From Parapedobacter pyrenivorans (GTDB lineage: Bacteria; Bacteroidota; Bacteroidia; Sphingobacteriales; Sphingobacteriaceae), in contig NZ_BMER01000001.1 in the NCBI RefSeq assembly GCF_014636865.1, positions 298,718 through 362,717 on the forward strand: a stretch of DNA of 64,000 nt. Reading direction: 5' to 3'. The notes beneath the pieces are model-generated. The model was not told the origin of the DNA and did no database searches. It was given only the letters and a program-made list of their open reading frames with translations. Both the position numbers and the translations under genes were made by a program. Shown in pieces: positions 19,637 to 47,487 of the stretch; positions within the stretch are counted from its first letter, which is position 1; every line of letters begins with the position of its first letter.

Positions 19637-20428
19637 ATGCAAGCACATTCCTTATTCGAAGGCTCATTTTCCGTAGATTCTTCCAAAAAGTTCGTTCCGT
19701 TTGACGCCAGTAAAGACAGCAAAAAAGATCGGCCGGGGTCGCTGTTCATCCATGTCCATCCATTCTTGATCGAATCGGCAAATGGATTACTGCTGCTTGA
19801 TACCGGCATCGGCTTCGCCGACAACGATGGCGACCTCCAACTGCGTTACAACATCCGGAAAGCTGGCTTTGAACCGAATAACGTCCGGTATGTACTGCTT
19901 TCTCACCTGCATAAAGATCATGCGGGCGGCATGGTCGTGGATCGAAATGGCACCTTCCGGCTTGCCTTTCCGGAAGCAGAGTACGTGGTACAGCGGGGCG
20001 AATGGGAGGATGCTTATAGCGGCAAATCCGACTCGTACCGAACGGAAATCTTTGACGTGTTACAGCGCAGCGGCAATCTCCTGTTGGTAGAAGGTAACGG
20101 CGTGCTGAATGACGAAATTAATTACGAAGTATCAGGAGGCCATACCCCCCATCATCAGGTCTTCCATATCCGTACCGGTGGCGAGCATTTCTTTTTCGGT
20201 GGAGACGAAGCCCCCGAGCCGGAGCAGTTTTTCCGCCAGTTTGCAGCCAAGTACGATTATGACGGGCGCAAGTCGATGGCGCTACGCCAGCAGTACTGGG
20301 ACCAAGGGAGTGTGGAAGGTTGGATTTTCCTGATGTACCATTCTACCAACATTGCCATCGGTAGGCCCGAAGTTAAGGAAAATGGGGAGTATCGGCTGGT
20401 CGATGCGGCTTCTCCAAAGAAAGCTTAA
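19637..20428 (+). CDS. MBL-fold metallo-hydrolase
   Basis: 263 aa without a signal peptide, so cytoplasmic. The metallo-beta-lactamase metal motif HLHKDHAGG sits at ~93-101. Further candidate ligands are the His of SGGHTPHHQVF and the Asp of FFFGGDEAPEPEQF. The fold covers glyoxalases, lactonases, phosphodiesterases and others; nothing fixes the substrate. A canonical promoter lies just upstream and a hairpin follows the stop codon, so it is probably monocistronic or loosely coupled to the next small lipoprotein gene. Confidence 0.85.
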   Translation: MQAHSLFEGSFSVDSSKKFVPFDASKDSKKDRPGSLFIHVHPFLIESANGLLLLDTGIGFADNDGDLQLRYNIRKAGFEPNNVRYVLLSHLHKDHAGGMVVDRNGTFRLAFPEAEYVVQRGEWEDAYSGKSDSYRTEIFDVLQRSGNLLLVEGNGVLNDEINYEVSGGHTPHHQVFHIRTGGEHFFFGGDEAPEPEQFFRQFAAKYDYDGRKSMALRQQYWDQGSVEGWIFLMYHSTNIAIGRPEVKENGEYRLVDAASPKKA

Positions 20429-20733: not shown

Positions 20734-21681
20734 TTAGTTTAAGACGAGCTCCACTACCACCGCCCGGTGGTCCGAAGGCCAAGTATCTATGACGATGTCA
20801 CTCATAGGCGAGGGTTCGCCCATGACCTGGGCTTCGATTACATTAAACCTATTTTTGCTTACATAAATCAAATCAATGCGATCGTGGATTTCGGGCGTGC
20901 GCCACAGCCCTTCCACGGACGTCCACGTATAGGCCGGCTTCTGTTTTATGTCCGGATAGACTTCCCGGTAAGCGTCCTTAAATCCTTTTTCAATAAGCAA
21001 CGCGGTAGCCGGCCAATTGACGGCAAAAGGCAATAGCGTGTCGCCCCGCTCCTCGATGGCTTTCTCAGTCCAGTCTAGGCAACTCGGCTCATTGAAATCG
21101 CCCACCAACACGGTAGGGAGGTCGGCATAAGCCGCTATTTGGTCTAGCATATCCTGCACCTGATATAACCTCGTTTCGCAGGCAGAGGCTTCAGCAGCTT
21201 CCGTGCTCAGCAGTTTCTTATCCGCAATATCGTACGGTTCGTATGGTGTATACATCAGGTGCATCACCCCGAATACGATTTCTTTATCACCGGGCAGCTG
21301 CAACAGTACAGCCTGTGAGTCTTTGACGCTACCGACCGGCTTCATGCCATATTTCGATATCATCGCTCGGCTTCCATCCACGATGTGGCACTGCCAGCCC
21401 AGGCTATCCGCGAGCAGCTGTGCCCGCGATTGATTATCGCTTTGGTTGGTGGTCTGCTCCTGAAAACCCACCACGTCGGCTTTTGCCTTGCGGATGGCTT
21501 CCAGTTGGTACTTGATTGTCGTATCGCGAGGAAGCTTTACCGCATCGCCGCCATGCCAGAGGTTGAATGTCATGACGCGCAGTTTGCTCAGCTCATCGGC
21601 TCCCCGATTAGCGGCAGACTGGCAAGAAATACAGAAAAAGGCAATAACAAATGCTTGGATGGTTATCATTGATCTGTTCAT
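20734..21681 (-). CDS. Endonuclease/exonuclease/phosphatase (EEP) family lipoprotein
   Basis: 315 aa. A lipobox-like FFCISC near residue 19 suggests a membrane-anchored periplasmic or outer-membrane lipoprotein. The EEP core is complete: VMTFNLWHGG (Asn), GFQEQT (catalytic Glu), VGDFNEPS (Asp/Asn) and the terminal SDHRAVVVEL (Asp/His). The family hydrolyses phosphodiesters or phosphomonoesters such as nucleic acids, sphingomyelin and phosphoinositides; the substrate cannot be read here. It lies 12 bp after a second EEP gene and downstream of a metallophosphoesterase and a SusCD pair, pointing to extracytoplasmic processing of an imported phospho-substrate. Confidence 0.88.
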   Translation of the reverse strand: MNRSMITIQAFVIAFFCISCQSAANRGADELSKLRVMTFNLWHGGDAVKLPRDTTIKYQLEAIRKAKADVVGFQEQTTNQSDNQSRAQLLADSLGWQCHIVDGSRAMISKYGMKPVGSVKDSQAVLLQLPGDKEIVFGVMHLMYTPYEPYDIADKKLLSTEAAEASACETRLYQVQDMLDQIAAYADLPTVLVGDFNEPSCLDWTEKAIEERGDTLLPFAVNWPATALLIEKGFKDAYREVYPDIKQKPAYTWTSVEGLWRTPEIHDRIDLIYVSKNRFNVIEAQVMGEPSPMSDIVIDTWPSDHRAVVVELVLN

Positions 21682-21693
21682 CGTTCTGGTATT

Positions 21694-22578
21694 TTATTTT
21701 TTGATTTCAAAAGTAGTCATTACCGCTGCGTGGTCTGAAGGGTACACGACAGGGTGTGTGTCGATCGTTTCTGAATTAACGGCTTTTAAGCTATTCCCCC
21801 GGTAAAAAATATAATCGATACGGTCTTGAAAGGCTTGCGGAAAAGCAGGGCTCCAAGTAATCCCGCGCATCGTCATGGGGTCAGGATGTATTTCACGGAA
21901 TGAATCGATGAACCCCCATTGTTCCATCAACAACGTGGCCGGAAAAGGCATGACATACCCTCCGTTGAGGTGCCGGGTCTCTAGCACCCAGTCCAAATGG
22001 GATCCGGTATTGAAATCTCCGCAGATGATTACGGGTACACGATCCGAATTTTCGATGGCAGGGCTTAGTGTGGCTACGATTTCACGCAGGATACCGGCGT
22101 TCTTTTCGCCCTCAAACTGCTCCCGCCACGCTACCGAATCAATCCGTTTCCCCTTTTCAAGCAGGTCCCAGTAGTCGAAGGGATAATTGAGCCAATTGCT
22201 GGCCACAACGATAGGCTGGCCACCCACGTCAATCGTTACCGCTCCGCTGTTGAAAGGGTCGTATGCATCCAATGTATCCACAATGGGGTAGCGGCTTAGG
22301 ATAGATAGGTTTGTACTGCGGAGATAAAAGTGATAACCCAACGCTTCGGCGATCCGCTCGCCTGAGCCATAGGTTTCCTGCATGGCCACAATATCGGCAC
22401 CCGAATCACGGATCACATTCACAACACGCATCGGGCCTTCCTCCTCCCCGGTTTCCCGGCCACCGTGCCAGATGTTGAAGGTCATCACCTTTAGGTATTG
22501 TGCCTGCACATCTGCTTGGATAGCTGTGGTAAGCAGGATTGTTAATACGTATTTCCATGTATTCCAGACGTTCCTCAT
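21694..22578 (-). CDS. Secreted endonuclease/exonuclease/phosphatase family protein
   Basis: 294 aa from the ATG at 22578, with a signal peptide (YVLTILLTTAIQADVQA). The chosen start follows the stop of the preceding gene by 2 nt and has AGG a few bases upstream; a longer frame from 22599 would overlap that gene. EEP motifs: VMTFNIWHGG, AMQETYG (Glu), CGDFNTGSHLDW and PSDHAAVM. It is related to the next gene but clearly diverged, and lacks the lipobox. The two may act in sequence or on different positions of the same phospho-substrate. Confidence 0.88.
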   Translation of the reverse strand: MRNVWNTWKYVLTILLTTAIQADVQAQYLKVMTFNIWHGGRETGEEEGPMRVVNVIRDSGADIVAMQETYGSGERIAEALGYHFYLRSTNLSILSRYPIVDTLDAYDPFNSGAVTIDVGGQPIVVASNWLNYPFDYWDLLEKGKRIDSVAWREQFEGEKNAGILREIVATLSPAIENSDRVPVIICGDFNTGSHLDWVLETRHLNGGYVMPFPATLLMEQWGFIDSFREIHPDPMTMRGITWSPAFPQAFQDRIDYIFYRGNSLKAVNSETIDTHPVVYPSDHAAVMTTFEIKK

Positions 22579-22580
22579 AC

Positions 22581-23444
22581 TTACCTGGCTACCTCCCATC
22601 CGTAGTCAACGTATTCCCAGTCGAAATCATCACCCGCTATGTCCACTTTCAGGAACCCTTCTTCCGTACCGTGGAAGGCGCCGCCCCACCAATTGGCGCT
22701 CACCGCTCCCGCGGTAATGAATTGTACGCCCTTCACCTTGATTTCCTCATACAGGTGCTGATGGCCTTGAAGCACCAATTTAAGATTGTGCGCCCCAAAC
22801 ATATCGAAAATTTCCTTTTGGTTGACGAAGGTATCCGCATCGGTATATTTTCCTTCCAACACAGGGTAGTAGAGTGACAGGAAAGGCACATGCGTGGATA
22901 CGATGATGGGCTGATCGGCAGGGGTTCGCGCAAGCAAATCAGATAGCCATAGCTGCTGTGTGTCATCCACGCAATATTGCCCGTCACAGATCTGTGCAGA
23001 GTTCAGGACGATAAATAGCCACCCTCTATGTTCAAATGAATAATAGGTCTCCCCGAAAAAAGATTCGAACAGCTTTTCGCCATACGTGCCGCTTTTCTCA
23101 CCATCGCCCCAATACCGGTCATGGTTGCCGATGGTGTATTTAAAAGGGAGTGATGATTGATCAACAACTGCTTTGTATTCGCTGAACAGCCTGACCGCGG
23201 TTTCACGTTGATTGCTTTTCATTGCATCGACATCAGCGTTGTCGCCTCCAGTCAGAATGAAGTCCACGCCTTTTGTTTCGGCCAATTGGATGGCTTGTTT
23301 GAAACCCTCCAAACTCCTGGATTTAGGATTCGTATTGGTATGGATATCCGTTAAAAATGCGAATGAGAAAGCTTCTTGGGCATGCACCGAGAATAGGGTT
23401 AGCAAACCGATACATACCGTACCTAAAATTTTTTTCAACATCAT
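22581..23444 (-). CDS. Secreted calcineurin-like metallophosphoesterase
   Basis: 287 aa from the ATG at 23444 (MMLKKILGTVCIGLLTLFSV, signal peptide ending near HAQ). An upstream frame extension to 23501 lacks signal character. All dimetal motifs are visible: FLTDIHTN (DxH), LTGGDNAD (GDxx), TIGNHDRYWG (GNHD), STHVPF and LQGHQHLYE (GHxH). It is a phosphomonoesterase or phosphodiesterase acting outside the cytoplasm. Spacing to the EEP gene is 2 nt, so these three are one operon. A hairpin separates it from the small secreted gene upstream. Confidence 0.9.
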   Translation of the reverse strand: MMLKKILGTVCIGLLTLFSVHAQEAFSFAFLTDIHTNTNPKSRSLEGFKQAIQLAETKGVDFILTGGDNADVDAMKSNQRETAVRLFSEYKAVVDQSSLPFKYTIGNHDRYWGDGEKSGTYGEKLFESFFGETYYSFEHRGWLFIVLNSAQICDGQYCVDDTQQLWLSDLLARTPADQPIIVSTHVPFLSLYYPVLEGKYTDADTFVNQKEIFDMFGAHNLKLVLQGHQHLYEEIKVKGVQFITAGAVSANWWGGAFHGTEEGFLKVDIAGDDFDWEYVDYGWEVAR

Positions 23445-23463
23445 TTCGTTTTCTATAAGGTTA

Positions 23464-23498
23464 CCCGTACAGTCGTGCAGGTTACACGACCGTCTGGG
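23464..23498 (-). terminator. Hairpin between small secreted gene and phosphatases
   Basis: GTCGTG and CACGAC form the core of an imperfect stem, with outer CCC/GGG pairing, between 23464 and 23498 and a ~7-nt loop. It sits in the 113-bp gap between the small secreted gene and the metallophosphoesterase. It has no T-run, so it may be a partial terminator or mRNA stabiliser that sets SusCD expression above that of the enzymes, as often seen in such loci. Confidence 0.35.
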
Positions 23499-23557
23499 CA
23501 ACCGGTATACATAGTTGTTGTCAGCTATTTCGTACTTGAAACAAATTCTCTTCAGAT

Positions 23558-23950
23558 CTAAAAAAGACTTCGTTGTGAAGCAGTAATGCCTGCAGCTTGT
23601 CCAAATTCGTCTAAAACACTAAAAGATGGACCTTTATTTGATAATCCTCCAGAGTTATTGACATAACTTGTCAATAACGAAACGGCTTCGGCTAACGTAT
23701 AAGAAGCGCCAGAGAAATTGATTAAACAGTAATCTCCACTACCTGAAGGACACATATCATGGGTTGGAGGAGAATAAATCTGTGACCAGGCTCCTGGATC
23801 TGAGGCCCCAGAGGGGCCGCTTCCTGCATAAAAGTAAATGTTAGCGGCTGCAGTTGGTGTGGCATCGACAACTTTGTCTTTTCCAGTAAAGGAAATTGTG
23901 CAGACAGAAAAAAACAGCAGGCAAACAAAAACAAATTGACTCTTTTTCAT
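23558..23950 (-). CDS. Small secreted hypothetical protein
   Basis: 130 aa with a clear signal peptide (MKKSQFVFVCLLFFSVCTIS). The mature part is Ser/Gly/Pro-rich and uncharged (NIYFYAGSGPSGASDPGAW), with two Cys spaced eight residues apart (DMCPSGSGDYCLINF) that could form a disulfide. I do not recognise the family with certainty; short secreted DUF6520-like proteins are a possibility. It starts 43 bp after susD and precedes the phosphoesterases, so it is probably transcribed with the SusCD pair. Confidence 0.6.
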   Translation of the reverse strand: MKKSQFVFVCLLFFSVCTISFTGKDKVVDATPTAAANIYFYAGSGPSGASDPGAWSQIYSPPTHDMCPSGSGDYCLINFSGASYTLAEAVSLLTSYVNNSGGLSNKGPSFSVLDEFGQAAGITASQRSLF

Positions 23951-23993
23951 GATTAACCCTGTTTAAATTAAAGTTAAATAATTATTCCAAAGA

Positions 23994-25784
23994 CTACTCC
24001 CAGTCAAACAGCTGATACAAATTGGTATTCAGTATTGTTTCGGAATTTGGCACGGGCCGGTAGTAATACTTGGGCTCGATAAAGTTGCGCTCCCGATCAT
24101 CAGTGACCAAGAAGCCGCCGTTCACGCCATTTTCGAGATAAATGGAAGCACCACTGCCTATTGTTCCGATGGTATAATAGATCAACTGCACGCCAAGCGA
24201 ATTTCGCTCGCGCTCAGCGGGAATGGTCTGCCCGTCGGGAATCAGCCGGATATCGGGAACACCGTCACCGGTTAAATCGTAATCGCCCACACCGGGGAAA
24301 TACATGCCCACCGGGATCCCTTCCAACAATTTACCGGCATGCCAGCGCATCAAATCATCGTACCGTATGTTTTCAAATGCAAATTCCACACGACGTTCGC
24401 GTCGGATCTCGAGGATTACGCCCCGGTTGCCGTCGGTGAGGTTTGGATACCTTGCCGCCAACACAGGGTCAACATCAGCATTGGCTTCGGTAAAATTCAA
24501 ATGTGGCATGCCGACACGGTCACGCAACACATTGACGGTATTGTCCAAATCGGTTTGGGTAAGTGTGCCCAATTCGGCTTTTGCCTCCGCCAGTATTAAC
24601 AATACCTCTGCATAACGGTGTACAGGTACGTCCGAACTATTCAGGATCACTTGATCCGTACTATTGACATAACCCTTTAACTGGTGGTATCCGGAGAAAT
24701 TCCGAGCTATAAACTGCACATATGGCGCATTGTCCTGCGCCCGCTGCCAACCGGGGTAAGCGAGGGTCTGGGCCAAACGGGGGTCACGGTTTTCAAATTC
24801 TTCTACGAAACCCATCGTCTCGTAGCCGGATTGATCAGTAAAACGTGAGCCATCGGCCATCAAATAGGTCTGCACCAGATCCCGTGCCGGTGATTGCTCA
24901 TAATTACCGAATATACCGGTGTTTTGATTTCCGCTTACGTTTTTGGTCTGGTCGAAGCTATTCACCAAAATCATCTCGCTATTACTCATCAGGTCTTGGT
25001 TGCCAAACAGGTCTGCATAATCGGATGCAGGGTTGCCGGTATTGTGAACGCTGAATCCGCCCTCAGCCATGATGCGTTCGGCTGCCGCCGCTGCCCGTTG
25101 CAGAAAAGCCTCGGCCGTGCTTTGCAGTTCCAACTCCGGATGGTATTTCCGGTAAGTGCCTTCGTAGAGTGCGATCTTGGCATCCATCACCGCTACGGCC
25201 CATTTTCCGGGGGTACCGGTTGGCACGTCCTCACGCACATTTGCAAGGGCAAAATCGAGGTCTGCCATCACGTTATCCATCACCAATTCCCGGGGATCCT
25301 GGGCCTTGAAGAGTTCTTCATCACCCGGATTGAGTGTGCCCGAATACCACGGCACATCGGAAAACCGCTTGACCTTGTCGTGATAGAAAATGGCGCGGTA
25401 GTAGCGGGCCAAACCCGCATAGTGGTTCTTTACTTCATCAGTCACAGCAGCCCGATCGTAGTTTTCCAGAAAGTAGTTGATCGTACGCAACCGTCCCCAC
25501 GACCACCCGCCTGAGACGTTTTGCGACGAAGGATTTCCGGTCATGATATTTTTCACCTCAACGGCCGCTGTTGTCGCCAGGTTATCTGTGCTTTGGTCGG
25601 AGATGTACATGCCGTGGCTCGATAGGCTTAATAGTCCGTTTGCGTAAAGCGCCAAATCCTCTTCCGTATTGAAGAAGACTTCCGGCGTGATGGAAGTCTG
25701 CGGATAGCGATCGAGGAAGTCCTTTTCACAGGAAACCGTCATCGTCATTAGCCCGATCAAAAATAATATGTGATATCTTTTCAT
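23994..25784 (-). CDS. SusD/RagB-family nutrient-binding outer-membrane lipoprotein
   Basis: 596 aa from the ATG at 25784 (MKRYHILFLIGLMTMTVSC, lipid Cys19); an ATG four codons upstream is possible. Features: EKDFLDRYPQTSITPEVFF at the mature N-terminus, a TPR-like helical core with ARYYRAIFYHDKVKRF, and the C-terminal signature RRERRVEFAFENIRYDDLMRW. SusD proteins cap the SusC channel and bind the ligand at the cell surface. SusC is immediately upstream. Downstream genes are phosphoesterases rather than glycosidases, suggesting a phosphorylated ligand. Confidence 0.95.
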   Translation of the reverse strand: MKRYHILFLIGLMTMTVSCEKDFLDRYPQTSITPEVFFNTEEDLALYANGLLSLSSHGMYISDQSTDNLATTAAVEVKNIMTGNPSSQNVSGGWSWGRLRTINYFLENYDRAAVTDEVKNHYAGLARYYRAIFYHDKVKRFSDVPWYSGTLNPGDEELFKAQDPRELVMDNVMADLDFALANVREDVPTGTPGKWAVAVMDAKIALYEGTYRKYHPELELQSTAEAFLQRAAAAAERIMAEGGFSVHNTGNPASDYADLFGNQDLMSNSEMILVNSFDQTKNVSGNQNTGIFGNYEQSPARDLVQTYLMADGSRFTDQSGYETMGFVEEFENRDPRLAQTLAYPGWQRAQDNAPYVQFIARNFSGYHQLKGYVNSTDQVILNSSDVPVHRYAEVLLILAEAKAELGTLTQTDLDNTVNVLRDRVGMPHLNFTEANADVDPVLAARYPNLTDGNRGVILEIRRERRVEFAFENIRYDDLMRWHAGKLLEGIPVGMYFPGVGDYDLTGDGVPDIRLIPDGQTIPAERERNSLGVQLIYYTIGTIGSGASIYLENGVNGGFLVTDDRERNFIEPKYYYRPVPNSETILNTNLYQLFDWE

Positions 25785-25802
25785 GATGTAATTCATTAAC
25801 GA

Positions 25803-28800
25803 CTAAAAACCTATATTCACTCCGAATGCAAACCTACGCTGGAAGGGGTAGGCCCAAGCGCTGTTATCTGTGCTGTTGTTGATGGCTTCCGGATCGACAA
25901 AGCGCTTCACTGCGGAAAACTCGAAGATGTTTTCGCCAGTGACAAAAAACCGCAGCCGACCCATTCCCCAACGTTGAATCACCTCGTGGGGGAGCGAATA
26001 GCCGAGGGTAATATTCTTTACCCGTAAATAGGCACCGTTGAGCAAATATTGCGTATTTGGAATGGCAAGACCTGACCAATTAAGGTCTGAGGTGGTATAA
26101 TTATAGTCTGCCAGCCAAGATTGCAATACCGGATAAGAGGCATCGAGGTTGGCATTTGCAAGCCCTGAAGCGATATAAGCCGCTGAGTGTTTGGCCATTT
26201 GCTCCGGAGCATCATCAGCGGCACGGTAGTGATCCAAATGCCATGGGTAGACATTCGCGTATGGCTGCTGATAAGGTCCCCAAAACAAATAATGCTGCGG
26301 ATAAAAATCACGTTTCAGCACGCCTTGTAAAAATACAGAGGCATCAAATCCGTTCCAATCCATATTGAGGTTGAACCCGATCCGGTAACGATCTGCCGTG
26401 TTGCCGATGATGGTACGGTCTTTCATGTCATCGGCCGTTTGTCCGAGTTCGATTTTACCATCCCCGTCCAAATCCTTGAACTTCGGCCATCCGGGCACGA
26501 TATCGAGCGCTCCCCATGGGATGATGGCGGTTTCGTCCAATTGATCAATTTCTTCCTGTGACTGGAAGAAGCCATCGCCAACCAGGCCATACAATGTCCC
26601 GAATTCATAACCTTCGAAATATTCGTTTCTTATAGTTCCGTTGGGATTTCGTGTTAGCAAAATCCGCTGATCATTCTTGAATTTGGTGACATGTGCCCGA
26701 GAGTCGGAAAGCAACAGCTTCGCTTCCAGTCCGAAGGGTTTAGAAGCTACCGTATACTGATCACGGTAGGTCAGCGAAAGCTCCCAGCCCTTGGTTCGCA
26801 AATCAGCCGAATTCTGACTGGGAACACCTGTTCCCAAAACTGCCGGCAATTGCTCCCCGGCTGTAAGCATACCCGTGGTTTCTCGGATGTAGTAATCGAA
26901 ACCCGCGAAAATGCGGTCACGTAGTAGCCCGATATCCGTACCGAAATTCAGGGTGGCCACATTTTCCCATGTATAGTTAAAGGGGTCAATGGTGAGTGAA
27001 GGTGCACCCGTAATGATTTGGCGTTGGCCGCCATCGATGAGGTAGCCGGAAAGCGCGGTGCCCATAGTTTGGATATAGGAAAAATCACCTACCGCTTGGT
27101 TACCCAGACTGCCATAAGAAGCGCGGAGTTTCCAATTGGAGAATGTTGGCTTCAGAGACTCGAAGAAAGGCTCATTACTGACAATCCATGCGCCGGATAT
27201 CGAAGGGAAGAAACCCCAGCGGTTGGTGGAGGGGAAGCGTGACGAACCATCGTACCTACCTGTGGCCTCAAGGATATAACGTTCATTAAGCGTATAGTTG
27301 AACCGCCCAAAGAAACTCCTTGTGGCATAGGTACTATACTCGGCATTGAGGCGGGCTTCACCGGTAGTTAACTGCAAATAGGGCAACGTGGAAGAAATCA
27401 ATTGGTCTCGCTCGGCAATGGTCGTGGCCCATACGTAGTCTTCCTGATTGTAGCCAGCGGTCAGGCTGAACGCATGGATGCCGAATTGCTTGTTATAATT
27501 GCCGTAAAGGTTAAACACATTGTTCTGGATCTCGCCCCGCCGATCATACACAAACCCGTTGCCGCCTTCTTCGCGAATATCATCTGGCCCATAGCCGATT
27601 TTGTATTTTTTCGAATTTTGGGGGTAGCGCCAGTACTCCCGTTTGAAGCTGGCATCACCCGTCACGGTCAGGTCGCCGTTGAGGAAGGTACCTACTGCAT
27701 TGAAAATATTCTGAAACCCAAACATCTGTTCGTTCCGGTTTCCGCCATCAACCAATTGTGCGGCCAGCCGCCCTGCAGCGTTATTCGCCCATGTACCATC
27801 TGGATTTTTGACCACGTTGGTGGGTTGGAGGTAATACAGATCGGTAATGCGCGCGTAGGGCTGCGCGATATCCGTTTGGTAGACGTTCATGTTATTATCC
27901 AGCTTCAACCAATTTAGCGGAGAAAACGAGAGCCTCCCCCGTATACCTTTCCGTTGCCAATAGTCATCGGCCAGTTTATTCAGCCCGTTGTCTTTTGTAT
28001 AATCGGCGGATAGGTAATACGAAATAGGTTTATCCTTAATCGTTGCACCGCCGGAAAGGGCGAGGCTATGGACCTGGGAAACCGTAGATTTCTTAAAAAA
28101 ATAGTCGTTCCAGTTATTATTCCCCATATACTCCCACCGATTTGCATCCGTTGGACTGATTCTGACATCCGGCAGCGAAGGGTCATCCGAACGTTCTTTG
28201 GCCCATTGGTAATACTCTTCACTGAACTGCACGTAACTCGGTCCATTCCAAGGTGTGTTGAGCGTTGATGTTTCCAGTACACGCGAAAAAATATAGGGGT
28301 CGGTCACCGGATCTGGCAATTCGGTGGGACGTCCGAAAGCCGTGGTCAGATTGTAACTGATGCTTTGTGTACCCTGGCTACCTTGTTTGGTGGTGATCAA
28401 GATTACCCCATAAGCCGCCCTTGCGCCGTAGATCGCTGCAGATGCCGCATCACGTAAAACCGTATAGGAAGCTACATCACTGGGACTGATTCGAATCATG
28501 TCATACGTATCGGATACCGGGATTCCGTCAATTACGATTAATGGTGCCCCCCCGTTGATGGAGGTTGTACCCCTGATGTTGATATTTGGAATTCCGCCAG
28601 GGCTACCGTTGCCATAGGTGATGTTCAGGCCCGGACTTGCTCCTTGCAAGCCCTGCATGATATTCGCTACCGGACGTGACTCCAGTTGCTTACCCGATAT
28701 CTGGTCTATGGCACCCGTTACGTTCACTTTCCGCTGTGTACCATAGCCTACCACAATCACCTCATCCAGGTTGCCGGCATCGGCTTCCAACGGCACATCC

Positions 28801-29111
28801 AATTGGGACTGCCCGGTAAACTGGATTTCCTGCATTTTGTAACCGACCATGCGAAACACCAATGTGGCCCCCGTCTCAAGACCTTCGAGTATATACTGTC
28901 CACCGTCGTCGGTTGCTGTCCCCAATGGTGTACCCTGTACGACTACACTCGCGCCAACCAGCGTCTGTCCGGATTGGTCCGTTACCTTCCCCACCAATCG
29001 ACTCTGTGCCATGGCTTCAAAAGGCACGATCTGCATCAATGTCAGTACAACACCAATGCAACTTTGAATAACCCACCATTGGGTCTTACTTTGTTGTCGT
29101 TGTTCTTTCAT
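25803..29111 (-). CDS. SusC/RagA-family TonB-dependent outer-membrane transporter (no STN domain)
   Basis: 1102 aa. Order: signal peptide; carboxypeptidase-regulatory-like domain (~36-115, LVGKVTDQSGQTLVGASVVV); TonB-box-like VIVVGYGTQRKVNVTGAI; plug domain with the SusC signature (RGTTSINGGAPLIVIDGIPV, AAIYGARAAYGVILITTK); then a long beta-barrel ending RFAFGVNIGF. There is no STN domain and no linked ECF sigma/FecR, unlike the other two SusC proteins here, so control must be different. A divergent TetR-family gene lies 401 bp away. The SusD gene starts 18 bp after the stop. Confidence 0.96.
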   Translation of the reverse strand: MKEQRQQSKTQWWVIQSCIGVVLTLMQIVPFEAMAQSRLVGKVTDQSGQTLVGASVVVQGTPLGTATDDGGQYILEGLETGATLVFRMVGYKMQEIQFTGQSQLDVPLEADAGNLDEVIVVGYGTQRKVNVTGAIDQISGKQLESRPVANIMQGLQGASPGLNITYGNGSPGGIPNINIRGTTSINGGAPLIVIDGIPVSDTYDMIRISPSDVASYTVLRDAASAAIYGARAAYGVILITTKQGSQGTQSISYNLTTAFGRPTELPDPVTDPYIFSRVLETSTLNTPWNGPSYVQFSEEYYQWAKERSDDPSLPDVRISPTDANRWEYMGNNNWNDYFFKKSTVSQVHSLALSGGATIKDKPISYYLSADYTKDNGLNKLADDYWQRKGIRGRLSFSPLNWLKLDNNMNVYQTDIAQPYARITDLYYLQPTNVVKNPDGTWANNAAGRLAAQLVDGGNRNEQMFGFQNIFNAVGTFLNGDLTVTGDASFKREYWRYPQNSKKYKIGYGPDDIREEGGNGFVYDRRGEIQNNVFNLYGNYNKQFGIHAFSLTAGYNQEDYVWATTIAERDQLISSTLPYLQLTTGEARLNAEYSTYATRSFFGRFNYTLNERYILEATGRYDGSSRFPSTNRWGFFPSISGAWIVSNEPFFESLKPTFSNWKLRASYGSLGNQAVGDFSYIQTMGTALSGYLIDGGQRQIITGAPSLTIDPFNYTWENVATLNFGTDIGLLRDRIFAGFDYYIRETTGMLTAGEQLPAVLGTGVPSQNSADLRTKGWELSLTYRDQYTVASKPFGLEAKLLLSDSRAHVTKFKNDQRILLTRNPNGTIRNEYFEGYEFGTLYGLVGDGFFQSQEEIDQLDETAIIPWGALDIVPGWPKFKDLDGDGKIELGQTADDMKDRTIIGNTADRYRIGFNLNMDWNGFDASVFLQGVLKRDFYPQHYLFWGPYQQPYANVYPWHLDHYRAADDAPEQMAKHSAAYIASGLANANLDASYPVLQSWLADYNYTTSDLNWSGLAIPNTQYLLNGAYLRVKNITLGYSLPHEVIQRWGMGRLRFFVTGENIFEFSAVKRFVDPEAINNSTDNSAWAYPFQRRFAFGVNIGF

Positions 29112-29162
29112 AATCGAATTTTAAGGTTTCTTAATTTATTAATTGAACATTTAGTCAATAAA

Positions 29163-29412: not shown

Positions 29413-29512
29413 CATTGGTAAAAATACATTGAATGAACATACAATTAATAAAAAAATGAAGTTTAATACTAACGAATTTTTTTATTTTCGCTTCGGTTAT
29501 AAACACACACCC

Positions 29513-30127
29513 ATGGGACGAAAAAGCTTAAGGGAAACCCGGCAATTGGAGATCATCAAGGTCTTTTATAAAGTTGCCAAGAAGGAGGGCTTGGAAAACA
29601 CGTCAATTGCCAAGATTGCTAAGGTAATGGATATCAACCCCAGCCTGATCATCCATTATTTCCAGACCAAGGAAGAACTTACCTATGCGCTCATCGATTA
29701 CATCCTCGACAAATACTTGCTGATCTATAAAATTGGCAAGGATAATAATATCCCATTAAAACAAGCATTGATCACCGTCATCGACGACCTGTTTTCAAAA
29801 AAGTGGAATAAATTGTTTGATGATGGGCTATTCTATAGCTGCTACGCATTAGCTTTCCGCGATAAAAAGGTAAAAGCGATGTACAAAGGCTTAACCGACT
29901 CGTTAAGGGAGCGGCTTACTGCACTGATAGATCGTGGTAAAGCCGCACAATTGGTCGAGGTCGACGACCCACGCCGGACCGCGGATCTTATTTTTGCATT
30001 GGTGGATGGTGCCTATTTCTATTTAAGTTTGGCAACAGATACCAAAGCTTTCGACGAAAAAATCACGGAATACAAAGCCGAGGCCTTTCGCTTGCTAAGT
30101 ATCCGTGACACGATTGCTTCGCCCTGA
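29513..30127 (+). CDS. TetR/AcrR-family transcriptional regulator
   Basis: 204 aa from the ATG at 29513 (MGRKSLRETRQLEIIKVFYK). Earlier in-frame codons to 29429 are possible, but they cover promoter-like DNA (TTTATTTTCG). The N-terminal helix-turn-helix has the TetR pattern SIAKIAKVMDINPSLIIHYF followed by QTKEELTYALIDYIL. The C-terminal ligand/dimer domain is helical and diverged. It is divergent from the SusC/SusD/phosphoesterase locus, making it the natural candidate regulator of that locus and of itself. Its 3' end overlaps the convergent small membrane-protein gene by 33 bp. Confidence 0.9.
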   Translation: MGRKSLRETRQLEIIKVFYKVAKKEGLENTSIAKIAKVMDINPSLIIHYFQTKEELTYALIDYILDKYLLIYKIGKDNNIPLKQALITVIDDLFSKKWNKLFDDGLFYSCYALAFRDKKVKAMYKGLTDSLRERLTALIDRGKAAQLVEVDDPRRTADLIFALVDGAYFYLSLATDTKAFDEKITEYKAEAFRLLSIRDTIASP

Positions 30128-30376
30128 CCTGCCGCCTCGCCTCGAATAGCGAGCCAATCCAAACAAGCCAATAAGCACCCACATACCGTTTGCAGCAAGA
30201 TTGGGCGTATCGGCAAAATAAAACGCACTAATAACCAAACCCAGCCCGCCAATCACGTTCAATGTTTGATAGAGCGCACCGTCAAAACGCAGCACCTTGA
30301 CGTTGAGCAACAGATATGCCACCGTGCAAAAAATAAATCCCAGCCAGCCAATAATCGTTACCGTTGTTTCCGTCAT
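30095..30376 (-). CDS. Small CBU_0592-like membrane protein
   Basis: 93 aa with three predicted membrane helices (TIIGWLGFIFCTVAYLLLNV, TLNVIGGLGLVISAFYFA and NGMWVLIGLFGLARY) and a basic C-terminal tail. The length and GxLYQxLNxIG-type pattern (DGALYQTLNVIGGLGL) match the CBU_0592 family of unknown function. The 3' end overlaps the convergent TetR-family gene by 33 bp, so its last 11 codons are antisense to that gene. Confidence 0.75.
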   Translation of the reverse strand: MTETTVTIIGWLGFIFCTVAYLLLNVKVLRFDGALYQTLNVIGGLGLVISAFYFADTPNLAANGMWVLIGLFGLARYSRRGGRSGRSNRVTDT

Positions 30377-31287: not shown

Positions 31288-31893
31288 ATGCTCCGTCTCT
31301 CATCGGATATCACAATTACCTTGCTGCGTAGATTGCGTAATGGAGATACTGTGGCTTTTGAACGATTGTACAAGGCCTTCGCTCCGGTACTTTACCAGCG
31401 CCTGCTGCGGTTGTTTAAAGATACCGATACCGTTGAGGAAATCATACAAGACACGTTTCTGAAACTTTGGGAAAAGCGTGAGCAGATCAATCCGGAACAA
31501 GCAGCCAAAACTTACCTGTACCGCATTGCGGACAACCTAGCTGTTGATGTATTCCGCAAAATAAGCCGCGACAAGGCTTTGCAAGAAGAATTATGGGCCA
31601 GTACCGTAAGCTTCTACCTCCAAACTGAAGAAACGCTGATTGCAAAAGAACAGTATCAGCTCGTCCACCAAGCCATCGAACACCTCTCTCCCAAGCGTAA
31701 ACAGATCTTGCTGCTATGTAAACTGGAAGGCAGGAGTTATCAAGAGGTTGCCGAAATGATGGGCGTTTCGGTATCGACAGTGAGCAGCCACTTGGTTAAA
31801 GCCGTTAAAGAGGTTAAACGGCACATCCTGAGAGCTACACATGGTGAAGAGATTGTACTTTTATACCTCATGGGCCTAGCGCTTGCCGCCTAA
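31288..31893 (+). CDS. ECF RNA polymerase sigma factor (FecI/SigZ-like, Bacteroidota type)
   Basis: 201 aa. Sigma region 2 includes TVAFERLYKAFAPVLYQRLL and VEEIIQDTFLKLWEKREQI; region 4 includes HLSPKRKQILLLCKLEGRSY and the helix-turn-helix EVAEMMGVSVSTVSSHLVKA. Such factors pair with a FecR anti-sigma protein and an STN-domain SusC, both encoded directly downstream. It is expected to direct transcription of this import locus when the substrate is bound. Confidence 0.93.
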   Translation: MLRLSSDITITLLRRLRNGDTVAFERLYKAFAPVLYQRLLRLFKDTDTVEEIIQDTFLKLWEKREQINPEQAAKTYLYRIADNLAVDVFRKISRDKALQEELWASTVSFYLQTEETLIAKEQYQLVHQAIEHLSPKRKQILLLCKLEGRSYQEVAEMMGVSVSTVSSHLVKAVKEVKRHILRATHGEEIVLLYLMGLALAA

Positions 31894-31977
31894 CCAAAAA
31901 AAATTCATTTTCCAGTAGTGTGTTTTTTCCGCCCGAACGTATAGGGATGAAACGGATTATAAACGAATTACCAAACT

Positions 31978-33147
31978 GTGGAAAATAACCACCGTATTGC
32001 GCAACTGCTGACGGAGTATTTAAACAAACAAATAAGCCGTACAGAATTTGATCAGCTTTTCTCCCAGTTGGCCACCATGGAAGACGAAGAGATGAAGACA
32101 ATCATACTACGGGCATTAGACAACGAGCCGGAAACCATCACCGATACCTCGTTTGTTGACGAACAGGTCGCTGCGTTATACCGACGGCTGCAAACTAAAT
32201 TGACACAACCTGCCAAACCAAAGGTAAACCGTTTACTCATCTGGCGAAGCGTCGTTTCTGCCGCGGTGATTTTGGTATTTGTGGCTATCGTATGGTACTT
32301 TACTGGCAAAAGCGAACCCCATGACCTTATTGCTACGATTACGCCCGAACGGGTATTACCCGGTACAAACCGGGCGACTTTGGAATTAGACGGTGGTCGC
32401 ACCATCGATTTAAATGCAGCGCAGAATGGGATTGTTGTGGGCGATGAAATTACCTACCTTGATGGTTCATCAGTACTCGATGAACCGGTAAGCCAACTGG
32501 CGCTCAGCACACCACGTGGCGGCCAGTACCAGATTACCTTGTCAGATGGTACACTCGTTTGGCTAAATGCTGCTTCCAAGCTGGAGTATCCTAGCCGGTT
32601 TAGCCGTAAGGAGCGCATCGTTAAATTGGAAGGCGAGGCCTATTTTGCGGTAGCGAAAGATAACAAGCGACCTTTCAGGGTGCTTAGCGAGCGGCAGGAA
32701 ATAGAAGTTTTGGGCACCGAATTCAATATTTCAGCCTATCCCGATGAAAACGAAATCCGGACAACACTTGTAGAAGGTAGTGTAGCACTAACGGCCTACA
32801 ACCAGCAGCCTACCCCCTTAAAACCCAACCAACAAGCCACACTTTACAATGGCACCGTTGCTATCAGCGATGTGGATGTTTCGGCAGCCATTGCCTGGAA
32901 AGATGGTCTATTTAATTTCCATGGCCTCAGCATCGATGAATCGCTGAAGCAGGTGGAGCGCTGGTATGACGTTGATGTCATTTACCAAGGCAAAAAACCC
33001 GCTGGGTACCTAGGTGGGAAAATGAGCCGTGGAGTTAAACTATCTACGTTCCTCAACTTCCTGGAAAAAGATTTCCAAATCAAATCCGAATTAAGGGCAG
33101 ACCGTACATTGGTCCTTTATGCTTCGGAAAAAAATAAAACCGACTGA
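31978..33147 (+). CDS. FecR-family anti-sigma factor
   Basis: 389 aa, apparently starting at GTG 31978: the frame is closed by a stop just upstream and contains no earlier ATG. Cytoplasmic N-terminal ~80 residues bind sigma (QLLTEYLNKQISRTEFDQLF); one membrane helix at ~87-107 (SVVSAAVILVFVAIVWYF); then a periplasmic FecR domain (TPRGGQYQITLSDGTLVWLN, KLEGEAYFAVAKD, EVLGTEFNISAY) and a C-terminal DUF4974 domain (FNFHGLSIDESLKQVERWYD) that contacts the STN domain of SusC. It relays substrate occupancy of the outer-membrane transporter to the sigma factor. Confidence 0.93.
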   Translation: MENNHRIAQLLTEYLNKQISRTEFDQLFSQLATMEDEEMKTIILRALDNEPETITDTSFVDEQVAALYRRLQTKLTQPAKPKVNRLLIWRSVVSAAVILVFVAIVWYFTGKSEPHDLIATITPERVLPGTNRATLELDGGRTIDLNAAQNGIVVGDEITYLDGSSVLDEPVSQLALSTPRGGQYQITLSDGTLVWLNAASKLEYPSRFSRKERIVKLEGEAYFAVAKDNKRPFRVLSERQEIEVLGTEFNISAYPDENEIRTTLVEGSVALTAYNQQPTPLKPNQQATLYNGTVAISDVDVSAAIAWKDGLFNFHGLSIDESLKQVERWYDVDVIYQGKKPAGYLGGKMSRGVKLSTFLNFLEKDFQIKSELRADRTLVLYASEKNKTD

Positions 33148-45906: not shown

Positions 45907-47487
45907 TTGAAAAAGCTACTCACAATCCTTTCCATGCTGGTTTTCAGCAGTGTCTTATACGCTCAAATGACCGCGACAGGTTATGTCTACAACGATACCA
46001 ATGGCAACGGCCGGCGTGACCGGCGCGAACCAGGCGTCGCCGGCGTTTCGGTAAGCAACGGTGTACAGGTCGCGGTAACGAACGCAAGCGGCCACTACGA
46101 GCTACCGGTAGGGTTGGACAACATCATCTTTGTCATCAAGCCATCGGGCTACACAATCCCCACGGATGCACACAACCTACCGAAATTTTACCACATTCAC
46201 AAACCCCAGGGCTCGCCAACGCTTAAATATGGTGGTGTGGCACCAACCGGGCGGTTGCCCAAATCGGTAGATTTCCCCCTGATCCAACATGTTGAACCGA
46301 CTGATTTCACCGCTTTGATCTTTGGCGATCCGCAAGCCTACACCGAGCAGGAGATCGCCTATTTCGCCAAGGGCGTGGTGGCCGAACTCGAGGGGGTGGC
46401 AAACATCGCTTTCGGATTGAGCCTGGGCGACCTGGTAGGTGATCGCCTGACCTTGCACAATCCCTATATCAAGGCCGTTGCCAAAGTTGGCATCCCGTGG
46501 TACAACCTGATGGGCAACCATGACATGGATTACGATGCGCCCGCCGATTCCCTGGCCGATGAAACGTTTGAAGCGAGCTTTGGCCCCGCAAACTATGCTT
46601 TTAACTACGGTAACGCGCACTTTATCGTGCTAGACGATATTCTGTATCCCGATCCGCGTGATGGCAAGGGCTATTGGGGTGGTTTCCGTAAGGACCAACT
46701 GGATTTCGTGGAAAATAACCTGAAACACGTGAGCAAAGATAAATTGATCGTACTGGCTTTCCACATCCCGTTGCAGCACACCGATGAAGACGCATTCCGC
46801 AACGCAGACCGGCAACGGCTGTTTGATTTGCTAAGGGACTTCCCGAATACCTTGTCCATGTCGGCGCACAGCCACCTCCAACGGCAGAATTTTTACGGCA
46901 GGGAAGATGGGTGGCGGCAAGACACCCCCCACCATGAATACAACGCAGGCACCACATCCGGCGATTGGTATTCCGGCGTATCCAATGCCCTGGGCGTACC
47001 GGCATCTACCATGCGTGATGGCACCCCGAAAGGCTACGCATTCCTTCGTATCAACGGCAACCAATACACCATAGACTATAAAGTAGCCGGAGAGCCCGAT
47101 AGCCTTCAGATCAACCTATTTCACCCCAAGGTGGTTGCCCAAGGTCGCGGCACACAAGCCGGCATCTTCGCCAACTTCTTTATGGGCCATGAAGGTAACA
47201 CCGTGGAATACCGCATCGGTGACGGTGATTGGCGGCCAATGCACTACGTAGAAGCACCAGATCCGGCCTTTCTGAGCCAATTATTCCAATGGGATATGGC
47301 AGATGAGCTGGTTCCGGGCCGTCGGCCCTCCAATGCGGTCAACAGCAAGCATCTGTGGCGCGGAAACATAATGACCAACCTGCCCGTCGGTGAGCACCGG
47401 ATTGAGGTGCGGGCCACAGATATGTTTGGCAGAACATTCACTCAGCAAAGTTCTTATCGGCTTGCCGAGCCGGTAACCATCCCATAA
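45907..47487 (+). CDS. Secreted calcineurin-like phosphoesterase with N- and C-terminal beta domains
   Basis: 526 aa, apparently starting at TTG 45907, which gives a clean signal peptide (KKLLTILSMLVFSSVLYAQ); no in-frame ATG lies between the upstream stop and it. An SdrD-B-like beta domain (~22-100) contains YNDTNGNGRRDRREPGVAGV. The phosphoesterase core shows FGDPQAYTEQ (Gln in place of the usual His), SLGDLVGDR, LMGNHDMDYD, AFHIPLQH and SAHSHLQR. A C-terminal metallophosphoesterase-type beta domain follows. Homologues with this layout are common near SusCD loci; substrate unknown. A GC-rich hairpin follows the stop. Confidence 0.9.
   Translation: MKKLLTILSMLVFSSVLYAQMTATGYVYNDTNGNGRRDRREPGVAGVSVSNGVQVAVTNASGHYELPVGLDNIIFVIKPSGYTIPTDAHNLPKFYHIHKPQGSPTLKYGGVAPTGRLPKSVDFPLIQHVEPTDFTALIFGDPQAYTEQEIAYFAKGVVAELEGVANIAFGLSLGDLVGDRLTLHNPYIKAVAKVGIPWYNLMGNHDMDYDAPADSLADETFEASFGPANYAFNYGNAHFIVLDDILYPDPRDGKGYWGGFRKDQLDFVENNLKHVSKDKLIVLAFHIPLQHTDEDAFRNADRQRLFDLLRDFPNTLSMSAHSHLQRQNFYGREDGWRQDTPHHEYNAGTTSGDWYSGVSNALGVPASTMRDGTPKGYAFLRINGNQYTIDYKVAGEPDSLQINLFHPKVVAQGRGTQAGIFANFFMGHEGNTVEYRIGDGDWRPMHYVEAPDPAFLSQLFQWDMADELVPGRRPSNAVNSKHLWRGNIMTNLPVGEHRIEVRATDMFGRTFTQQSSYRLAEPVTIP

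Follow-up and report, generated by a model that had tools for sequence, protein, structure and literature searches.

The closest described counterparts of the locus examined here are PUSI and PUSII of Flavobacterium johnsoniae, in which SusCD-like pairs (PusCD1 and PusCD2) occur with phosphodiesterases or a phosphatase. As the report on these loci describes them, phosphate depletion induces them, their suggested substrates are lipid headgroups and nucleic acids, and PusD is polyphyletic (PMC8115612). We analyzed a SusCD locus at positions 20734 to 29111 of a 64,000-nucleotide stretch of the Parapedobacter pyrenivorans genome (the window; contig NZ_BMER01000001.1, positions 298,718 to 362,717), in which the transporter pair is followed by three phosphoesterase-family genes and faces a TetR-type regulator. 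For most SusCD pairs, we know of no identified ligand. In this case, the regulator, its operator, and the adjoining catabolic genes of relatives together point to a likely ligand that is not a glycan. On balance, and with a modest lean in its favor, we infer that the locus is a choline-responsive system that imports and hydrolyzes phosphocholine-type diesters.

Six genes follow one another on the minus strand, transcribed in the order SusC, SusD, a 130-amino-acid (aa) protein, a calcineurin-like phosphoesterase (MPE), and two EEP-family enzymes (EEP1 and EEP2), with gaps of 6, 43, 113, 2, and 12 bases when the ATG codons at 23444 (MPE) and 22578 (EEP1, internal) are taken as starts. An earlier reading made from the letters alone (the sequence-only reading) had described this series, with export signals on all six products, and family models confirmed the positions and families. 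The SusC/RagA-type TonB-dependent outer membrane transporter (25803 to 29111; TIGR04056, 771 bits, cutoff of 368) has Plug and CarbopepD_reg_2 domains, and a domain search agreed with the sequence-only reading that it lacks an STN domain. The SusD-family surface lipoprotein (23994 to 25796; PF07980, 151 bits) scored 25.5 bits against the starch Sus model NF033071, for which the cutoff is 725. The MPE (22581 to 23444) matches PF00149 (Metallophos; 53 bits), and EEP1 (21694 to 22578) and EEP2 (20734 to 21681; a probable lipoprotein) match PF03372 with 85.5 and 69.9 bits. Judged by eye, there are signal peptides on SusC, the small protein, the MPE, and EEP1 and lipobox-like cysteines on SusD and EEP2. 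The small secreted protein (23558 to 23950) had no match to any known family in family-model searches and, among the loci compared, was recognized only in the nearest relative, L041 (71%). Family-model scans found no glycosidase or lyase family among the genes of 20734 to 29111, which sets the locus apart from a classical polysaccharide utilization locus (PUL) and bears out the earlier claim of phosphoesterases in place of glycosidases.

By gene plan, the locus is related in kind to PUS/PusCD, and it differs in its enzymes and its regulator. As in the published description of the PUS loci, a SusCD-like pair adjoins secreted phosphodiesterases or phosphatases and not glycosidases; PUSI also includes a PF00149 enzyme, as does the window's locus. 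However, the PUS enzymes are described as PF16670 or PhoA proteins, whereas the window's locus has EEP and PF00149 enzymes. PUSI is reported with an extracytoplasmic function (ECF) sigma factor and PUSII with FecR, whereas the window's locus has a TetR-type gene and a betI-like palindrome, and some of its relatives contain choline genes. Among the matches listed from open-license PMC papers, there was no choline- or phosphocholine-linked SusCD pair.

The most informative part of the locus turned out to be the divergent TetR-type regulator (29513 to 30127, plus strand; PF18665, 138 bits; BetI-type PF13977, 31.8 bits). The sequence-only reading had correctly noted that no sigma/FecR pair is linked to the locus (the nearby pair, at 31288 to 33147, is on the opposite strand and precedes a second SusCD); it had overlooked the TetR. 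BetI is the nearest curated family of this protein, and the two BetI models were the only curated models matched by all 10 TetRs scanned. In silico, it thus looks to work like a BetI, although it is not filed as one. We compared the locus with 80 named loci (L numbers), which are the best of at least 518 SusD relatives and therefore biased toward close relatives; gene content was counted in 79 of them, as the SusD of L159 was not called as an open reading frame (ORF). A TetR gene was present in 56 of the 79. A TetR search of 395 Bacteroidota genomes (E value of 1e-25) found five, namely, that of P. pyrenivorans, that of G016 (L045), and three new ones (L178, L179, and L180). In L178, the TetR lies between a PF01663-type gene and a different SusCD, which is followed by an MPE. 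In L179, the TetR and palindrome precede a different SusCD (its SusC divided into two ORFs), an EEP gene, and a phosphocholine-specific phospholipase C (TIGR03396, 754 bits, cutoff of 580).

To characterize the putative operator, we ran an expectation-maximization (EM) palindrome search on 69 nonredundant TetR upstream regions, from which the near-duplicates L081, L087, L160, and L151 and the overly long region of L109 had been dropped. The resulting motif was ATTGAATG-ta-CATTCAAT at 18 columns and ATTgAtTGAAcgTTCAaTcAAT at 22 columns. With the 22-column matrix, two predicted operators lie in the divergent promoter region of the window, one proximal to SusC (29138 to 29159; 21.1 bits) and one proximal to TetR (29428 to 29449; 25.8 bits), so that the region contains, in silico, a betI-type palindrome. 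Sites of at least 15 bits were found upstream of TetR in 55 of the 56 named TetR loci, which belong to the training data (the site of L146 scored 10.2 bits). The remaining sites of this strength in the 80 loci (1.64 Mb) were upstream of SusC in 10 loci (L101, L103, L104, L108, L110, L111, L112, L128, L130, and L160) or upstream of betB (L141; 17.0 bits) and nowhere else; among the 24 loci without a called TetR, one (L103) had the palindrome. Three later-found TetR regions that were independent of the training (L173 to L175) all had a site (21.3, 24.0, and 26.8 bits).

A second independent test came from Escherichia coli K-12, whose betI-betT intergenic region scored 21.9 bits, with the next best site in 9 kb at −0.5. 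With a 20-column matrix, the score was 20.5, whereas 200 base shuffles reached at most 13.8. A LuxR consensus, which has the same outer half-sites, scored −4.2 with the palindrome matrix. In the P. pyrenivorans genome, a pattern search allowing up to three mismatches returned the two window sites and a single three-mismatch place beside a ribD-like gene (identified by eye). The likeness to E. coli betIBA-betT extends beyond the palindrome: in both cases, a TetR-type gene diverges from a transporter, and L131 has TetR-betB-betA in the arrangement of betI-betB-betA, SusCD occupying the place of betT. The differences are that the window's TetR is not a BetI by cutoff, that the transporter is a SusCD accompanied by phosphodiesterases, and that the window's genome has no betA.

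Choline oxidation genes were found within the SusCD locus in three lineages. In Cerina litoralis (L131), SSS-betA-betB-TetR is divergent from SusC, SusD, a 289-aa protein, MPE, EEP, PF01663, e(P4), and BCCT genes. In Tangfeifania (L141), betB-betA-SSS precede TetR, with the operator 278 bases before betB, and the MPE is 63% identical to the window's. In Algoriphagus (L101, L104, and L108), betA is located 63 to 65 bases downstream of the PF01663 gene. The betA products of L131, L141, and L104 scored above the TIGR01810 cutoff; the betB products of L131 and L141 were above the NF009725 cutoff and slightly below that of TIGR01804, and the SSS symporters were below the TIGR00813 cutoff. In a fourth genome, that of Echinicola shivajiensis, a betB-betA-SSS operon separate from the SusCD locus has the palindrome upstream (22.1 bits). 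We searched 91 genomes for betA (77 from the named loci and 14 from the same family; the genomes of L101, L128, and L088 were not included, and those of L145 and L158, with matches under the cutoff only, were not counted). Eleven had a betA above the cutoff, and in 4 of these 11 it was inside the SusCD locus, where the expectation is about 0.4% each (20 kb of 5 Mb). The lineages with in-locus bet genes occupy three separate places in the TetR tree, although L131 and L141 both fall in a weakly supported set of 10.

The SusD search that selected the relatives was independent of their phosphoesterase content, which was counted with purpose-built profiles that we verified by Pfam on examples. The relatives belong to genera including Pedobacter, Dyadobacter, Chitinophaga, Algoriphagus, Echinicola, Cyclobacterium, Arenibacter, Tangfeifania, and Lewinella. 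An MPE, PF01663-type, or EEP gene was present in 70 of 79 loci (MPE in 52, PF01663 in 49, and EEP in 10), and at least two of these kinds were present in 35. All 23 same-family loci (L041 to L063, four of which duplicate named loci; SusD identity, 48 to 82%) had at least one phosphoesterase, and the nearest relative, L041, retains all six genes (MPE identity, 73%). An apparent lack of phosphoesterases in L056, L057, L060, and L160 was overturned by a PF01663 gene on the other side of TetR. The MPEs of the relatives are of two types, the second being 22 to 30% identical to the window's MPE. Further phosphoesterases were PHP proteins (L079 and L159; by profile, L141), e(P4)-type acid phosphatases (L131 and L144; by profile, L134), and PhoA (L159). 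The phosphoester theme is therefore conserved while the kind of enzyme varies between relatives. As the phosphoesterases that relatives retain beside SusCD belong to three or more unrelated folds, the earlier suggestion that the locus takes up a phosphate-containing substrate is well supported. That suggestion had ranged over phospholipid headgroups, inositol phosphate, teichoic acid, and nucleic acid fragments; a phospholipid headgroup fits best, and we favor phosphocholine esters specifically because the palindrome is shared with the E. coli betI-betT region and because choline oxidation genes lie inside the loci of relatives.

The genes and their families, the conserved neighborhood, the palindrome with its E. 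coli bet match, and the bet genes in relatives' loci are direct observations; we infer that the operator is bound, what the inducer and the substrate are, and which activities the enzymes actually have. In the proposed mechanism, the TetR-type, BetI-like repressor would occupy both palindromes in the divergent promoter region until choline or a close derivative, signaling phosphocholine-containing material, releases it. SusC and SusD would then bind a phosphocholine-type diester, either glycerophosphocholine or a soluble headgroup ester like it, and import it across the outer membrane, and the secreted MPE and EEP enzymes would cleave its phosphoester bonds to yield choline, phosphate, and the alcohol part. 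Choline could be taken up via a BCCT transporter, with phosphate and the alcohol being used; the BCCT transporter of the window's genome scored below the cutoff for both the BetT model (531 bits; cutoff of 695) and the glycine betaine model (522 bits). In some relatives, BetA and BetB from the same locus would oxidize choline to glycine betaine. We see an even chance that this represents a widespread Bacteroidota outer membrane importer for phosphocholine esters, in which SusCD replaces the choline transporter of a betI-type regulon and the phosphodiesterases, which belong to several unrelated folds, are interchangeable. If so, this would be a SusCD family with a phospholipid headgroup ligand, controlled by choline sensing and neither by a glycan nor by phosphate starvation. 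It would enable Bacteroidota to recycle phospholipid headgroups in soil and sea, and the operator would serve as a handle for finding further such systems.

Several observations weigh against a choline-responsive phosphocholine importer. The TetR scored 48.3 bits against TIGR03384 (BetI; cutoff of 201.3) and 49.2 bits against NF001978 (cutoff of 118), it is 16% identical to E. coli BetI, and a very long branch separates the two in the tree. Its candidacy as a BetI orthologue is weakened accordingly. The betI box reported for BetI1 of R. pomeroyi, ATTGACG*CGTCAAT (PMC12442346), differs in spacing and scores low with our matrix. In 12 of the 79 loci, FecR occurs without TetR and the palindrome is missing, and 11 more loci have neither regulator. 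No phosphoesterase was recognized in 9 of the 79 (L086, L100, L102, L137, L145, L149, L153, L154, and L158), three of which (L137, L154, and L158) come from short contigs (5.2 to 9.6 kb). A SusC fragment adjoins the TetR and palindrome in L180, and no phosphoesterase was recognized there in 19.5 kb. Furthermore, a betA above the cutoff was found neither in the window's genome nor in the 14 same-family genomes searched, and the palindrome was not found at the betA genes of the L154 genome and of five Cyclobacterium genomes. Most genomes chosen for a phospholipase search (53 of 65) encode a phosphocholine-specific phospholipase C, and an operator-like site was located near only 1 of the 30 such genes examined (L192). 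The L179 case is weak because the enzyme is so widespread; its placement there may be due to chance, and its value as proof of the substrate is weakened.

The folds of the enzymes do not decide the substrate, since each of the MPE, EEP, and PF01663 folds is known for both nucleotide and choline-phosphodiester hydrolases. In the MPE, the metal-binding motifs D-x-H, GGD, GNHD, H, and GHxH were invariant in alignments, and for its AlphaFold model (predicted local distance difference test [pLDDT] score of 85), Foldseek gave Rv0805, purple acid phosphatases, and GpdQ as the nearest folds; SMPDL3A and acid sphingomyelinase were lower in the ranking. GpdQ of Enterobacter aerogenes has the same calcineurin-like fold (TM-score of 0.67 to 0.69 by query length), but it is only 12% identical to the MPE, and by E value it ranks below Rv0805 and pig purple acid phosphatase. 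The model of EEP1 (pLDDT score of 81) was nearest to a Beutenbergia EEP protein and TDP2, followed by ExoIII, with neutral sphingomyelinase at rank 25. These neighbors, at 12 to 21% identity, hold at the superfamily level only. Neither Foldseek nor PDB profile searches found a solved structure near enough to settle the substrates, which is a further point against a firm assignment to phosphocholine, and profile searches of the PDB with the PF01663, TetR, MPE, and EEP alignments gave matches too distant for naming substrates. The two EEP enzymes may also differ in their chemistry: the position of a histidine in EEP2 (VMHL) is taken by a tryptophan (SNWL/F) in EEP1 and many relatives, and if this histidine is the catalytic one of DNase I-like enzymes, the chemistry of EEP1 may be different.

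Given the gene plan of Flavobacterium PUSI and PUSII and the induction reported for them under phosphate depletion (PMC8115612), the locus might instead scavenge phosphorus in general, taking up mixed phosphodiesters under phosphate starvation in the manner of PUS/PusCD and with no choline specificity. The e(P4)-type enzymes of L131 and L144 and the PhoA and PHP proteins of L159 are consistent with such a role. However, a TetR and a betI-like palindrome stand here where the published description has an ECF sigma factor (PUSI) or FecR (PUSII), and bet genes in the loci of three lineages have no place in a plain phosphate system; we consider this explanation unlikely. Uptake of nucleotides or nucleic acid fragments, with the EEPs as nucleases, the MPE and PF01663 proteins as nucleotide phosphodiesterases, and e(P4) as a 5′-nucleotidase, retains some support from the fold neighbors (TDP2, ExoIII, and AP endonucleases for EEP1 and Rv0805 for the MPE) and from an e(P4) nucleotidase-family gene in relatives, which is over the 5′-nucleotidase family cutoff in L131 and matches the corresponding Pfam family in L144. 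Yet it accounts for neither the choline genes nor the palindrome, and fold matches at such low identity leave substrates unfixed, making this alternative distinctly improbable.

The substrate could also be a phosphorylated or phosphocholine-decorated glycan, with the locus as a PUL specialized on phosphoester decorations. Some relatives of EEP1 have an extra LamG-like domain, and Calx-beta and DUF5018-related proteins are encoded behind SusD in L125 and L141. Sugar enzymes, which also count against a pure phosphocholine importer, came from Pfam scans of a few neighboring genes in the relatives' loci: a GH110-like (GLAA-B) and a GH95 gene behind SusCD on the same strand in Dyadobacter L082, GH3 and SASA genes in L133, a GH109-type gene in L131, and a pectate-lyase-like protein in L134. 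The window's locus itself, however, is without any glycosidase family, and we give a decorated glycan only a slim chance. At the place of the GH110 and GH95 genes of L082, Dyadobacter loci L083, L084, and L100 have genes of similar length.

Phosphoesterase-type neighbors of SusD are uncommon, though not unique, in the P. pyrenivorans genome. Of its 111 SusD matches, five have an EEP gene within 4.5 kb and two have a calcineurin-like gene, with this locus alone having both; PF01663 matches, mostly partial and weak, lie within 4.5 kb of seven other SusD genes. The same genome contains a second EEP-SusCD group of three paralogous loci with an EEP gene directly behind SusD (C2, 273.8 to 278.0 kb; C5, 345.1 to 347.7 kb; and C1, 832.3 to 835.0 kb), and no calcineurin-like gene was found within 4.5 kb of these three.

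A possible extra component of the system is a small membrane protein of 93 aa that belongs to the CBU_0592 family (30095 to 30376, minus strand; NF047864, 48.2 bits, cutoff of 25). Its gene is convergent with TetR and overlaps the TetR end, and a profile match was present in 34 of the 56 named TetR loci. Scans for promoters (15 versus 15.1 by background) and terminators (16 versus 12.5 [SD, 3.4]) stayed near background. In Desertivirga arenae (L054/L151), the MPE gene is broken into two ORFs (143 and 129 aa), whereas the PF01663 gene is intact. A fourth phosphoesterase fold is represented by PHP-domain proteins that also have a DUF5001 Ig-like domain and are encoded near related SusCD pairs in L079 (9299 to 10516) and L159 (12858 to 13985). 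Directly behind the window's locus, a plus-strand gene (19637 to 20428) encodes a metallo-beta-lactamase-fold protein that resembles N-acyl homoserine lactone (AHL) lactonases (below the cutoff), and this gene is retained together with RecJ in L055. Elsewhere in the window, a MetallophosN/MetallophosC calcineurin-like protein is encoded at 45907 to 47487 (plus strand), close to the second SusCD and a CstA gene.

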